In this document: positions 45,847 to 53,318 of the stretch, one piece after another | Layout: every line of letters starts with the position of its first letter | Numbering within the stretch: the stretch's first letter is position 1 | Assembly: GCF_008386465.1 (NCBI RefSeq) | Contig: NZ_VUOD01000002.1 | Location: 62,001 to 126,000 of the forward strand | From: Arenimonas fontis | Lineage (GTDB): Bacteria; Pseudomonadota; Gammaproteobacteria; Xanthomonadales; Xanthomonadaceae | Reading direction: 5' to 3' | DNA: 64,000 nt | Position numbers and translations under genes: made by a program | Notes under the pieces: generated by a model | What the model was told of the DNA's origin: nothing | Seen by the model: only the letters and a program-made list of their open reading frames with translations | Database searches by the model: none

Positions 45847-45880
45847 GTGTCACCGGACCGTCACGAAAGTGATATCTAAT
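45847..45880 (+). promoter_or_regulatory. Pho box and -10 of the phoB operon
   Basis: GTGTCAC (45847-45853), CGGA, CCGTCAC (45858-45864): two half-sites of the PhoB-box type (CTGTCAT-N4-CTGTCAC) with the required 11-bp period. TCTAAT (45875-45880) lies 10 bases downstream, the standard PhoB-activated arrangement in which the box replaces the -35. It indicates autoregulation of phoB. Confidence 0.82.
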
Positions 45881-45909: not shown

Positions 45910-46602
45910 GTGCAGAAGCGCATCCTCATCGTCGACGACGAACCCGCCATCCGCGAAATGGTCGCTTTCGCCCTGCGCAAGGGCGAATACGAGCCGGTAC
46001 ATGCCGGGGACGCCCGCGAGGCCCAGACCGCCATCGCCGAGAAGGTGCCGGACCTGATCCTGCTGGACTGGATGCTGCCCGGCGCCAGCGGCCTGGAGCT
46101 GGCCCGGCGCTGGCGCAAGGACGAACTGACCCGGGACATCCCGATCATCATGCTGACCGCCCGCGGCGAGGAGAACGATCGGGTCAGCGGCCTGGAATCG
46201 GGTGTGGACGACTACGTCGTCAAGCCCTTCTCGGCCCGGGAACTGCTGGCGCGAATCCGGGCGGTACTGCGGCGCTCCCGCGAGGACGACGATGACGGTT
46301 CGGTGACGGTCGGCAGCCTGCGCATAGACGGCGCCGCGCACCGGGTCTTCGCCGGCGAGCAGTCGGTGCATCTGGGCCCGACCGAATACCGGCTGCTGCA
46401 CTTCTTCATGACCCACACCGACCGGGTTTATACCCGGACCCAGCTGCTCGACCACGTCTGGGGCGGCAACGTCTACGTGGAGGAGCGTACGGTGGACGTG
46501 CACATCCGGCGGTTGCGCAAGGCCCTGGAGCCACATCGGCTGGACGGGATGGTGCAGACGGTACGCGGCTCCGGCTATCGCTTCTCGGCTGCCACCACTT
46601 GA
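45910..46602 (+). CDS. phoB: Phosphate regulon response regulator PhoB
   Basis: A 230-residue OmpR-family response regulator. The receiver domain has acidic residues DDE (9-11), phospho-acceptor D53 in LLDWMLPG, T in MLTARGEE and K in DDYVVKPFS. The winged-helix DNA-binding domain (about 135-225) includes GPTEYRLLHFFMTH, VYTRTQLLDHVWG, and EERTVDVHIRRLRKAL, which is very close to E. coli PhoB. The start is GTG at 45910. The operon promoter has a Pho box. phoR follows after 19 bases. No pst-phoU genes are in the window. Confidence 0.96.
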   Translation: MQKRILIVDDEPAIREMVAFALRKGEYEPVHAGDAREAQTAIAEKVPDLILLDWMLPGASGLELARRWRKDELTRDIPIIMLTARGEENDRVSGLESGVDDYVVKPFSARELLARIRAVLRRSREDDDDGSVTVGSLRIDGAAHRVFAGEQSVHLGPTEYRLLHFFMTHTDRVYTRTQLLDHVWGGNVYVEERTVDVHIRRLRKALEPHRLDGMVQTVRGSGYRFSAATT

Positions 46603-46621: not shown

Positions 46622-47968
46622 ATGAGCCTGTCCCTGCTGCTGCGCCTGGCCTGGCGACAGTCCCTGATCCGCCTGTTGCTGTTCTACGCCCTGGCCCTGG
46701 CCGTCGGCCTGGCCCTGGACGAGCCCTGGTGGGCCCTGGGCCTGGCCACGGCCGTCGTGGCGTTACGGGCCTACTGGCGGCTGTACCGGGTGCTTCGTTT
46801 CCTGGACTGGCGCAAACAGCTGCAGACCGTGGACGGCCAGGGCCTGTGGGCTGCGCTGGAGACCCTGATCCATCGGCGCCAGACCGAAAACCGGGCGCGG
46901 ACCCGCCGGCTGGTGCGGTTGTTGCGCGCCTACCGGCAGGCGGCCACCGCCATGCCCGACGGAGCCCTGATCGTGAACCGGCACGACGGCCGCCTGGTCT
47001 GGTTCAACAAGACCGCCCGCCACCTGCTGGGCCTGCGCTACCCGCAAAGCCTGGACACGCCGCTGGCCGAGGTGTTCGAGGGCCAGCCGCGGGTGCGGGA
47101 CTGGTTCGCCGCCGGCATCACCGACGAGCCGCTGACCGACCTGCCCAGCCCGGCCGAGCCGATGGCCCGGCTCAGCCTGCGCCTGATCCCCTATTCGCCG
47201 ACCCAGTGGCTGGTGGTGGTGCGCGACGTCACCAAGCTGATGCGGCTGGAGCAGGTGCGCCGGGATTTCGTCGCCAACGTCTCGCACGAGCTGCGCACGC
47301 CCCTGACCGTGGTGCACGGCTACCTGGACATGATCGAGCCGGACGAGCACCCCGAACTGGCCCACATGGTCGAAGAAATGCGGCGGCAGTCCCAGCGCAT
47401 GACCCAGCTGGTCGAGGATCTGCTGACCCTGTCGCGACTCGAGGCCCAGGAATCCCTGCCGGAAGAACCGCTGGCGATGGCGCCGATGCTGGTGACCCTG
47501 CGCCGCGAAGCCGAGGCGCTGAGCCAGGGACGGCACCAGGTCCTGGTGGAGGACCGTGCCGGCGTGGACCTGACCGGCTCCACGAAGGAACTGCACAGCG
47601 CCTTCTCCAACCTGGTCAGCAACGCGGTTCGCTACACGCCGACCGGCGGCCGTATCCTGATCCGCTTCGAGCGCAGCGCCGACGGCGGCGCGCGGCTGGC
47701 AGTGCAGGACAGCGGCTATGGCATCCCCGCCCAGCACCTTCCGCGCATCACCGAGCGCTTCTACCGGGTATCCACCAGCCGCTCGCGCGAATCCGGCGGC
47801 ACCGGTCTGGGCCTGTCCATCGTCAAGCACGTGCTCAGCCTGCATCAGGCCAGGCTGGAAATCGAAAGCGAGGTCGGCCGCGGCAGCACCTTCGCATGTG
47901 CGTTCGGGCCGGCCCGGGTCCGGCAGCGGGAAACGGCTGAAGCCGGGGCCGGCGGCAGCGTAGACTAG
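46622..47968 (+). CDS. phoR: Phosphate regulon sensor histidine kinase PhoR
   Basis: A 448-residue inner-membrane kinase. Two hydrophobic segments (about 15-32 and 36-52) without a large periplasmic loop, a basic linker, a PAS domain (about 108-205, MPDGALIVNRHDGRLVWFNKTA), and the HisKA helix with H222 in FVANVSHELRTPL. The ATPase domain has N-box SNLVSNAVRYTP, G1 VQDSGYGI and G2 GGTGLGLSIVKHV. Lack of a periplasmic sensor fits PhoR, which reads phosphate status through PstSCAB-PhoU. ppk starts 5 bases after its stop. Confidence 0.95.
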   Translation: MSLSLLLRLAWRQSLIRLLLFYALALAVGLALDEPWWALGLATAVVALRAYWRLYRVLRFLDWRKQLQTVDGQGLWAALETLIHRRQTENRARTRRLVRLLRAYRQAATAMPDGALIVNRHDGRLVWFNKTARHLLGLRYPQSLDTPLAEVFEGQPRVRDWFAAGITDEPLTDLPSPAEPMARLSLRLIPYSPTQWLVVVRDVTKLMRLEQVRRDFVANVSHELRTPLTVVHGYLDMIEPDEHPELAHMVEEMRRQSQRMTQLVEDLLTLSRLEAQESLPEEPLAMAPMLVTLRREAEALSQGRHQVLVEDRAGVDLTGSTKELHSAFSNLVSNAVRYTPTGGRILIRFERSADGGARLAVQDSGYGIPAQHLPRITERFYRVSTSRSRESGGTGLGLSIVKHVLSLHQARLEIESEVGRGSTFACAFGPARVRQRETAEAGAGGSVD

Positions 47969-50058: not shown

Positions 50059-51579
50059 ATGCCGGCCCGCGCCCTGCCACCACTGGAGGACGGCGAACTG
50101 CTGGCGGCGGTGGACCTGGGTTCCAACAGCTTCCACATGGTGGTCGCCCGACACGTACTCGGCCAGTTGCGCATCGTCGACCGCATCAAGGAGACCGTGC
50201 GCCTGGCCGAAGGCCTGGACGGCCGCGGTGGCCTGGACCCGGCCGTGATGCCGCGCGCCCTGGACTGCCTGGCCCGTTTCGGCCAGCGCATCGCCAGCAT
50301 CCCGCCGCACCGGGTCCGGGCCATCGCCACCAATACCGTGCGCCAGCTGGCCAATCCGCAGGCCTTTCTGCTGCCGGCCGAAACGGCCCTGGGCCATGGC
50401 ATAGACGTCGTCGCCGGCCGCGAGGAAGCGCGCCTGATCTACCTGGGTGTCGCCCACGGCAAACAGCTTCCGCCCGGCAAACGGCGCCTGGTGATCGACA
50501 TCGGCGGCGGCTCCACCGAGTTCATCGTCGGCCAGGGCTTCGAACCGATCGAACGCGAGAGCCTGCAGATGGGTTGCATCGCCAGCACCCGGCGCTTCTT
50601 CCCCGACGGCAAGCTTTCGCGCAAGCGCTGGAAGGAGGCGCGCACCGAGATCACGGCGGAGTTCCAGCAATTCGCCCAACTGTTCCGCGCCCGCGGCTGG
50701 GACGAGGCGATGGGATCCTCCGGCACGATCAAGTCGGTCTGCGACATCTCCATCGCGCTGAAGCTGACCAAGGCCTCGATCACCGCCGAATCGCTGGCCG
50801 AGATCCGCGAGCGGGTGCTGGAGTTCGACCGGGTCGCCGAGGTGAAGCTGCCCGGATTGTCCGGCGACCGCCGGCCCATCCTCGCCGGTGGCCTGCTGGT
50901 GCTGGATGCCGCCTTCGCCGAACTCGGCATCGAACGCATGTACGTCAGCGACTACGCGCTGCGCGAGGGCGTGCTCTACGATCTGCTCGGGCGCAGCCGC
51001 GACGAAGATCCGCGCGAAGCGTCCATCCAGGCGCTGTGCGACCGGTACGGCGTCAACCTCGAGCAGGCAGGACGGGTCGAAGCCACTGCCCTGCGCCTGT
51101 TCGACCAGGTGCAGGCGGACTGGAAGCTTGAACCCGACGAACGCCGGCTGCTCGGCTGGGCGGCGCGCATCCACGAGATCGGCCTGGCCGTCGCCCATAG
51201 CCAGTACCACGTCCACGGCGCCTATCTGGCCGAGCACTCCGACATCGCAGGTTTCTCCCGCACCGAACAGCAATGGCTGGCTGCCCTGCTCCGGAACCAG
51301 CGCCGCAGTCTGTATCTGGCCGCTTTCGATCGCCTGCCCGACCGGCTGATGGCCAATGCGGTCAACTGCGCACTGCTGCTGCGCCTGGCGGTGCTGCTGC
51401 ACCGCAGCCACCACCGGGAGCCTTTGCCGGTGGTCGAGCTGGACATCGGCGAAGGCCAGATGGTGCTGCGCCTGTCCAGGCGCTGGCTGGACGCCCATCC
51501 GCTCACCCGCGCCGACCTCGACACCGAACGCGAACATCTGCAGGACATCGGCCGCCGGCTTTCGATCAGGGCGGTCTGA
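50059..51579 (+). CDS. ppx: Exopolyphosphatase Ppx
   Basis: A 506-residue actin/HSP70-fold enzyme that removes terminal phosphates from polyphosphate (and possibly the pppGpp 5' phosphate). Motifs are AAVDLGSNSFHMVVAR near 15-30, ATNTVRQLAN, EEARLIYLGV, VIDIGGGSTEFIVG and GSSGTIKS; the C-terminal HD-like helical domain follows from about 320 (HEIGLAVAHSQYHVHGAYLAEHSD). It starts 3 bases after ppk and is the last gene under the phoB promoter before a second Pho box that begins 2 bases after its stop. Confidence 0.95.
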   Translation: MPARALPPLEDGELLAAVDLGSNSFHMVVARHVLGQLRIVDRIKETVRLAEGLDGRGGLDPAVMPRALDCLARFGQRIASIPPHRVRAIATNTVRQLANPQAFLLPAETALGHGIDVVAGREEARLIYLGVAHGKQLPPGKRRLVIDIGGGSTEFIVGQGFEPIERESLQMGCIASTRRFFPDGKLSRKRWKEARTEITAEFQQFAQLFRARGWDEAMGSSGTIKSVCDISIALKLTKASITAESLAEIRERVLEFDRVAEVKLPGLSGDRRPILAGGLLVLDAAFAELGIERMYVSDYALREGVLYDLLGRSRDEDPREASIQALCDRYGVNLEQAGRVEATALRLFDQVQADWKLEPDERRLLGWAARIHEIGLAVAHSQYHVHGAYLAEHSDIAGFSRTEQQWLAALLRNQRRSLYLAAFDRLPDRLMANAVNCALLLRLAVLLHRSHHREPLPVVELDIGEGQMVLRLSRRWLDAHPLTRADLDTEREHLQDIGRRLSIRAV

Positions 51580-51580
51580 G

Positions 51581-51609
51581 CCGTCACCTCGGCGTCATCG
51601 CAGCGTCAC
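51581..51609 (+). promoter_or_regulatory. Triple Pho-box-like repeat in front of the glycosyltransferase-PAP2 pair
   Basis: CCGTCAC (51581-51587), GCGTCAT (51592-51598) and GCGTCAC (51603-51609) repeat with GTCA at 51583, 51594 and 51605, an exact 11-bp period over three half-sites. This fits tandem PhoB binding. A clear -10 is not visible; TGGCAT (51615-51620) is the nearest weak candidate. Confidence 0.72.
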
Positions 51610-51654
51610 GGTCCTGGCATGGCCGGGCACCAGCATGGCGCCATGGACGCGCGC

Positions 51655-52788
51655 ATGCACATCGAACTGGTCACCGAGACCTGGCCGCCCGAGGTCAACG
51701 GGGTGGCCCTGACCGTCCAGTCCATGGCCGAGGGTCTGCGCCAGCTCGGCCACCAGGTCGGGGTGGTGCGACCGGAGCGGCCTGAAGAATCGCCCCGACC
51801 GGATCCGATGCTGATGCTGGTGGAAGGCGCGCCGATGCCGCGTTATCCCGGGCTGCGCTTCGGCCTGCCGGCCGGGCGGCGACTGACGGCACGCTGGTCG
51901 GCCGCCCGGCCCGATGCCGTATACATCGCCACCGAAGGCCCGCTGGGCTGGTCGGCGCTGCGCACCTGCCGGCGCCTGGGCATTCCGGTGGCGACCGGAT
52001 TCCACACCCGTTTCGACGACTATGTCGGCCGTTACGGTGCCGGCTTCCTCGGCCCCTGGGTGCTGGCCTGGCTGCGCCGTTTCCACAATCGGGCCGATGC
52101 TACCCTGGTGCCTACCGAGGAGCTGCGGGAGAGTCTGCTCCGGAACGGCTTCCGGCATCCGGTCCGGCTGGCGCGGGCGGTGGACACCCGGACTTTCCAC
52201 CCCGGCTGGCGCGATTCGGCCTTGCGTGCCGATTGGCAGGCCGGTCCGGACACGCCGGTGGTCATGCACGTGGGCCGGATCGCCCCGGAAAAGAACCTGG
52301 AGCTCGCGGTACGGGCCTTCCGCGCCCTGCAGGCCGAACGGCCGGATGCCCGTTTCGTCTGGGTCGGCGATGGCCCGGCGCGGGAACGCCTGCAGTCCGC
52401 CAATCCCGACTTCCTGTTCGCCGGCATACGGCGCGGCGACGACCTGGCGCGCCACTTCGCCAGCGCCGACCTGTTCTGCTTCCCCAGCCTCTCGGAAACC
52501 TTCGGCAATGTCACCCTGGAGGCCATGGCAAGTGGCGTCGCCACCGTCGCCTTCGACTACGGTGCCGCCCGCGAACACCTCCGCGACGGCGAGCATGGCG
52601 CGGCAGTGCCCTTCGGCCACGAAGACGGGTTCGTGCAGGCCTTCGTCCGGACCGCGCTGCACCCACGGCGCGCCGCCATGGGCGCTGCGGCCCGCAAGGC
52701 CGTGGAACACCTGCACCCGCTGGCGGTGGCGGGCGATCTGGCCAGCCTGCTGGCGGCCCTGGGTCCACGTCGGGAGCGGGCGGCGTGA
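51655..52788 (+). CDS. GT4 family glycosyltransferase, probably Pho-regulated glycolipid synthase
   Basis: A 377-residue retaining GT-B glycosyltransferase of the GT4 family. The N-domain begins MHIELVTETWPPEVNGVA and has GFHTRFDDYVGRYG. The C-domain has VMHVGRIAPEKNLELAV, WVGDGPARE, and the EX7E nucleotide-sugar motif in SETFGNVTLEAMASG. It is nearest in pattern to lipid glycosyltransferases (SqdX, MgtA and Agt types) that act on diacylglycerol, but the acceptor is inferred. In-frame ATGs at 51619 and 51643 lie close to the Pho box; 51655 fits the family N-terminus. The stop overlaps the PAP2 start (GTGA). The triple Pho box upstream suggests expression in phosphate limitation. Confidence 0.87.
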   Translation: MHIELVTETWPPEVNGVALTVQSMAEGLRQLGHQVGVVRPERPEESPRPDPMLMLVEGAPMPRYPGLRFGLPAGRRLTARWSAARPDAVYIATEGPLGWSALRTCRRLGIPVATGFHTRFDDYVGRYGAGFLGPWVLAWLRRFHNRADATLVPTEELRESLLRNGFRHPVRLARAVDTRTFHPGWRDSALRADWQAGPDTPVVMHVGRIAPEKNLELAVRAFRALQAERPDARFVWVGDGPARERLQSANPDFLFAGIRRGDDLARHFASADLFCFPSLSETFGNVTLEAMASGVATVAFDYGAAREHLRDGEHGAAVPFGHEDGFVQAFVRTALHPRRAAMGAAARKAVEHLHPLAVAGDLASLLAALGPRRERAA

Positions 52789-53318
52789 ACGCCCGCGCCC
52801 GCCGGCTGGCGCGGCAGGAGCAGGTCTGGTGCCTGGCCGCCAATCGTCTGGGCGCGCGGGCGGCAGTCCGCGCCTGGTTCCGCCTGGTCAGCCGCCTGGG
52901 CGACGGAATGTTCTGGTACGCGCTGATGGCGGGCCTGGTACTGCTGGACGGTTGGCGCGGCCTTGCCGCCTCGGCGCAGCTGGCGGCCACAGGACTGGTG
53001 GCTCTGCTGCTGTACCGCCGCCTGAAGCGCTGGACGCGCCGGCCGCGTCCGTTCGCGGTGGACGGCCGGATCCGCGCCTGGATCGCGCCGCTGGATGAAT
53101 ACAGCTTCCCTTCCGGCCACACCCTGCATGCCGTCGCCTTCACCCTGGTCGCGCTGGCCCACTATCCGGCCCTGGCACCGCTGCTGCTGCCCTTCACCGG
53201 CTGCGTGGCGCTGTCGCGGGTGGTCCTTGGCCTGCATTACCCCAGCGACGTGCTGGCGGCCACCGGCATCGGCGCGCTCCTGGCAGGCATTTCCCTGCTG
53301 CTCTGGCCGGTCGGCTGA
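52785..53318 (+). CDS. PAP2-family membrane phosphatase
   Basis: A 177-residue integral membrane phosphatase with about five spans. All three PAP2 motifs are present: KRWTRRPRP (KX6RP), PSGH in YSFPSGHTLHA, and SRVVLGLHYPSD (SRX5HX3D). Such enzymes dephosphorylate phosphatidate, phosphatidylglycerophosphate or undecaprenyl pyrophosphate. The start is GTG at 52785 inside the glycosyltransferase stop, with GGGAG 8 bases upstream, so it is translationally coupled to it. Coupling suggests that it supplies diacylglycerol from phosphatidate to the glycosyltransferase and frees phosphate; this is inference. Confidence 0.88.
   Translation: MNARARRLARQEQVWCLAANRLGARAAVRAWFRLVSRLGDGMFWYALMAGLVLLDGWRGLAASAQLAATGLVALLLYRRLKRWTRRPRPFAVDGRIRAWIAPLDEYSFPSGHTLHAVAFTLVALAHYPALAPLLLPFTGCVALSRVVLGLHYPSDVLAATGIGALLAGISLLLWPVG

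Follow-up and report, generated by a model that had tools for sequence, protein, structure and literature searches.

PlcP-Agt lipid-remodelling systems have been described from P. aeruginosa (PA3219-PA3218), from S. meliloti (PlcP) and from marine bacteria (PMC4796936). The P. aeruginosa glycosyltransferase Agt2 makes glucuronosyl-diacylglycerol both in E. coli and in phosphate-starved P. aeruginosa, and a plcP mutant of this species still made some of the lipid, which the authors ascribed to another source of diacylglycerol (PMC8528852). Here we describe a gene pair of Arenimonas fontis, a GT4 glycosyltransferase gene followed by a PAP2 phosphatase gene, which on the available sequence evidence very likely makes a sugar-based membrane lipid that replaces phospholipid under phosphate starvation.

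The locus and its promoter

The window, by which we mean the entire 64,000-nt stretch of DNA that was analysed, is part of contig C12 of a 2.63-Mb genome, to which A. metalli, A. donghaensis and A. terrae are the closest among named species. An earlier note on this DNA had proposed the gene order phoB-phoR-ppk-ppx-GT4-PAP2, and Pfam and NCBIfam assignments bear it out (Table 1). The GTGA overlap between the GT4 and PAP2 genes that it also described is present at 52785-52788. A 4-nt overlap is the usual one in Arenimonas and across its order, and this length is kept in 20 of the 23 order-level relatives measured.

Table 1. Features of the phoB to PAP2 region, numbered from the first nucleotide of the window
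Feature	Position	Strand	Details
phoB, presumed activator	45910..46602	+	TIGR02154 above cut-off
phoR, presumed sensor kinase	46622..47968	+	TIGR02966 above cut-off
ppk	starts 47974
ppx	50059-51579
Pho box, four half-sites at 11-bp steps	51583..51619	+	GTCA 51583, GTCA 51594, GTCA 51605, GGCA 51616
-10 element CAGCAT	51631..51636	+	15 nt past start of last half-site
GT4 glycosyltransferase, 381 aa, Agt2 clade (by sequence)	51643..52788	+	AlphaFold pLDDT 94.8
PAP2 phosphatase, 177 aa	52785..53318	+	GTG start overlapping GT4 stop; AlphaFold pLDDT 96.5

Upstream of the GT4 gene, the three GTCA half-sites at exact 11-bp steps reported in the earlier note were found, together with a degenerate fourth, GGCA, that its list did not include. 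The spacing from the last half-site to the -10 element is the same 15 nt as in E. coli phoA. An ATG stands 6 nt past the -10 and is most likely the GT4 start, instead of the longest-ORF start at 51619, which is disfavoured because it lies upstream of the -10. Given so short a distance between -10 and start codon, the GT4-PAP2 mRNA probably has little or no leader.

Could such an array arise by chance? The exact GTCA triple occurs once in the genome, and the only matches in the window with at most one mismatch are the Pho box itself, in two registers, where shuffles lead one to expect 0.10. A fuller pattern, composed of four half-sites plus the -10 and drawn from orthologous promoters, has a single perfect match genome-wide, which is the GT4 promoter. 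Together these results rule chance out. With up to two mismatches allowed, the fuller pattern has four matches in the host genome, and reversed-pattern controls have none; apart from the GT4 promoter, one site is doubtful and two are the divergent Pho-box promoters between the start of pstS-pstC and a porin-like gene (C12:262675-262809; L220 3176-3310), genes that were named by eye from their translations. Association of the box with the ppx neighbourhood was likewise ruled out, as it accompanies GT4 where ppx lies elsewhere (e.g., L011, L014, L015 and L021). Within the window, phoB has a Pho-box-like promoter of its own at 45849-45880 (GTCA at 45849 and 45860, with TCTAAT 15 nt after the second), a sequence that suggests phoB autoregulation.

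The promoter is conserved with the gene. Across 122 orthologous loci, which are non-independent (the named set, made up almost entirely of Xanthomonadaceae and their kin, contributes 79), the best half-site array scores a mean of 12.8 out of 16, compared with 8.6 in shuffles, and reaches p ≤ 0.01 in 88%. Among loci of other families, 8 of the 15 scored reach that level. The -10 was not used in locating the arrays; NANNNT nevertheless falls exactly at +15 in 111 of the 120 orthologous promoters with a readable -10, and at each other offset from 10 to 21 in only 0-3 of the 120. The P. aeruginosa agt2 promoter consists of GTCA, GTCA, TTCA and TACA, then GACACT at +15, and after 6 nt the ATG. The promoter of a GT4-PAP2 pair in A. 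baumannii combines four half-sites with TAATCT at +15.

The glycosyltransferase and the phosphatase

The nearest solved relatives of the GT4 protein by sequence are PimA and PimB', and the NCBIfam models that it matches best, none of them above cut-off, describe lipid glycosyltransferases. Its best match in P. aeruginosa (51% identity across 87% of the protein length; global identity 47.8%) is encoded downstream of plcH-like and plcR genes. We take these to be PA0844 and PA0843, respectively, and from these neighbours the match is almost certainly PA0842/Agt2. A midpoint-rooted GT4 tree, made by a short search with no bootstrap and with outgroup GT4 genes left out, resolves into two clades, both at 100% SH-aLRT: one holds Agt1 and the plcP-linked genes, the other Agt2 and all of the GT4-PAP2 genes. 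By this sequence-based placement the host GT4 is a member of the Agt2 clade. Three NDP-sugar dehydrogenases over cut-off are encoded in the host genome, and a supply of UDP-glucuronate is therefore plausible.

It is very improbable that the GT4 protein instead serves polysaccharide or LPS synthesis, with diacylglycerol not the acceptor. GT4 is a large, mixed family, and a structure search with the predicted model (predictions were run on alignments without plasmid-derived rows) ranks BshA, MshA, sucrose-phosphate synthase and PimB' together, but sequence groups the protein with a proven lipid enzyme, Agt2, its best NCBIfam models point the same way, and its neighbours in the window are Pho genes, with no polysaccharide cluster. 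Fold comparison, which had been put forward as a way to discriminate between lipid and polysaccharide enzymes, was uninformative here because all kinds of GT4 share the fold.

The PAP2 protein scores above cut-off for PF01569 and has the signature motifs K-x6-RP, PSGH and SR-x5-H-x3-D, the motif residues of which are invariant in 44 homologs. Its predicted fold is nearest to LpxE (Z 21.0 over 161 residues, 21% identity), a B. subtilis PAP2 phosphatase and human G6PC1. PgpB ranks lower (Z 14.7 over 163 residues), and identities to PgpB and LpxE are 21-23%. The best NCBIfam hits are the undecaprenyl-diphosphatase SepP and PgpB, all far below cut-off. The modelled fold is no closer to PgpB than to LpxE and acid phosphatases, and fold by itself does not give the substrate.

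These resemblances leave room for a reading in which GT4 makes a phosphate-starvation glycolipid while the PAP2 substrate is some other lipid phosphate: the lipid A phosphate on which LpxE acts, PGP or undecaprenyl diphosphate. PAP2 would then save phosphate but supply GT4 with no diacylglycerol. The LpxE match and the SepP and PgpB hits favour this reading, yet identity to LpxE is just 21%, and neither the conserved translational coupling to GT4 nor the linkage of PAP2 with PlcP absence, documented below, is explained by it; we consider it unlikely. PAP2 enzymes of known structure work on the periplasmic side. With PAP2 periplasmic and GT4 cytoplasmic, diacylglycerol would have to cross the membrane, which counts against our preferred explanation, a PAP2 that supplies diacylglycerol to GT4.

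Distribution of the pair and of PlcP

The GT4-PAP2 arrangement occurs widely among gammaproteobacteria, Xanthomonas and Stenotrophomonas included. PAP2 follows GT4 in all 80 named Xanthomonadaceae-type loci. Of 232 gammaproteobacterial genomes sampled evenly, 25 encode an Agt2-like GT4 (E ≤ 1e-77), one of them at a contig end, and in 20 of the 24 decidable genomes PAP2 is close by, as read from coordinates: it is adjacent in 18, and in the other two (G109 and G163) PlcP lies between. The earlier note had called for a survey of the overlapping pair beside ppx; the pair and its overlap recur, but ppx is not always a neighbour. In A. baumannii (L142 4777-6731), a GT4 gene whose product is about 38% identical and a PAP2 gene lie 24 bp apart behind the four-half-site Pho box, which predicts phosphate-starvation glycolipid synthesis in Acinetobacter.

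The PAP2 link goes together with the absence of PlcP. Twelve of the 20 genomes with PAP2-linked GT4 have a PlcP-family gene (E ≤ 1e-70), as against every one of the 34 remaining Agt carriers (Fisher p = 1.2e-4, in a test that ignores species relatedness). The eight absences hold at E 0.001, where the remaining hits are distant (E ≥ 6e-14). Among 37 named genomes with the pair, a PlcP-family protein was not found at E ≤ 1e-8 in 11, including the complete chromosome of X. hortorum. Close relatives without the pair carry plcP-agt instead (e.g., G006, G030, G032 and G040).

Replacement of PlcP by PAP2 everywhere is ruled out, given its coexistence with a PlcP-family gene in 12 of the 20 PAP2-linked genomes of the class sample. 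PlcP and PAP2 are both kept, side by side, in G109, G163 and G167, and PAP2 is divergent from plcP-agt1 in G264 and G117. The earlier proposal that PAP2 takes the PlcP role therefore fits the PlcP-free genomes but is incomplete, given that some genomes, these three among them, keep both genes side by side. Because the two sometimes co-occur, PAP2 is better seen as a second source of diacylglycerol than as a replacement for PlcP. Such a source fits both patterns, since it would make PlcP dispensable yet allow the two to work jointly.

Several individual loci are of interest in their own right. GT4, PlcP and PAP2 are clustered in G109 (L192) and G163 (L194), and in G109 the order GT4-PlcP-PAP2 looks operon-like. 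In G017 (L055 2236-2616 and L056), of the same genus as the host, plcP apparently lacks its middle part and stands beside an intact agt1-type gene, with a PAP2 of the host subfamily elsewhere in the genome; perhaps this genome is in the course of losing PlcP, or the assembly is at fault. An Agt1-type GT4 gene is divergent from a host-subfamily PAP2 gene in G027 (L027), a genome without PlcP, and in G224 a gene for a distant metallophosphoesterase (PF00149) directly follows PAP2 (L174 3186-3932).

In the host, PlcP is absent from the operon, and its sole homolog in the genome is a distant paralog (C23:136909-137640) located behind an OlsF-like gene (PF19576 and PF13444). The host and G087 are the two of the 12 PlcP-family carriers with a PAP2 link that apparently hold the paralog alone. 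In a PlcP tree whose bootstrap is not fully settled, the P. aeruginosa and S. meliloti PlcPs group with the operon-borne PlcPs at 98/91, and the paralog falls into a separate 100/100 clade; its identification as a true PlcP is thus not supported. The reference PlcPs were identified from adjacent genes (a glycosyltransferase gene downstream; genes for AHL synthase and LuxR) and from a mutual identity of 45%, in accord with the published 46%.

The paralog could nonetheless work as a PlcP and be the source of host diacylglycerol, with PAP2 an auxiliary only. It is 39% identical to operon-borne PlcP, has kept the metallophosphoesterase motifs and sits behind a lipid gene. Against this are its clade, apart from that of the proven PlcPs, the lack of a clear Pho box on its stretch, and the occurrence of GT4-PAP2 with neither PlcP nor the paralog in G002, G021, G025 and Xanthomonas species, and we regard such a role as quite improbable. 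On C23 the gene for the OlsF-like bifunctional acyltransferase runs into that of the PlcP-like metallophosphoesterase (L041 2356-4876). The two genes are found together in many other Xanthomonadaceae genomes, where they may form a lipid module of their own.

Proposed mechanism and comparison with known systems

The earlier note saw in this locus a variant of the PlcP-Agt lipid-remodelling systems, and that proposal is strengthened by the Agt2-clade GT4, the promoter layout shared with agt2 and the PAP2 link with PlcP absence. We favour, as moderately probable, a PhoB-driven, PlcP-independent variant in which PAP2 supplies diacylglycerol from phosphatidate. When phosphate is scarce, phosphorylated PhoB would bind the four-half-site Pho box and start the nearly leaderless mRNA for GT4 and PAP2. 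PAP2 would then strip phosphate from phosphatidate, giving diacylglycerol and free phosphate, and the Agt2-type GT4 would transfer onto the diacylglycerol the sugar of a UDP-sugar donor, with glucuronate or glucose the probable choice. The product would be a phosphorus-free glycolipid in place of phospholipid. In phosphate-starved plants, phosphatidate phosphatases supply the diacylglycerol for galactolipids. PAP2 would use newly made phosphatidate, and PlcP existing phospholipid.

A broader claim, on which we are evenly divided, is that GT4-PAP2 constitutes a widespread second route, in which PhoB-induced PAP2 draws diacylglycerol from phosphatidate and by which whole lineages, Xanthomonas among them, remodel their lipids without PlcP. 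A literature search of openly accessible papers found nothing relevant on phosphate-starvation glycolipids of Xanthomonas, Stenotrophomonas or Acinetobacter or on a GT4-PAP2 operon. The pair predicts glycolipid remodelling in plant- and human-associated Xanthomonas, Stenotrophomonas, Lysobacter and Acinetobacter, which plcP-based surveys would miss. It also makes PAP2 a concrete type of candidate for the diacylglycerol source, independent of PlcP, to which the P. aeruginosa work pointed without naming it (PMC8528852).

So, is this a PlcP-Agt system? The host has an Agt-type GT4, of the Agt2 clade, and a PhoB-type promoter, but a search found no PlcP in the operon, and the sole homolog in the genome falls outside the clade of the proven PlcPs. 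The unit is therefore no PlcP-Agt system by membership, yet very probably works like one. Like PlcP-Agt operons, it combines Pho-box control with a diacylglycerol-type GT4 beside a putative diacylglycerol-releasing gene; unlike them, it has PAP2 where they have PlcP and a GT4 of the Agt2 rather than the Agt1 clade. The host PAP2 shares fold and catalytic motifs with PgpB and LpxE, but differs from both in being coupled to a glycosyltransferase and under putative Pho control. P. aeruginosa Agt2 (PA0842) resembles the host GT4 in clade, Pho-box layout, -10 spacing and a start 6 nt after the -10, whereas its gene lies downstream of plcH-plcR, is not followed by PAP2 and belongs to a genome that has PlcP.
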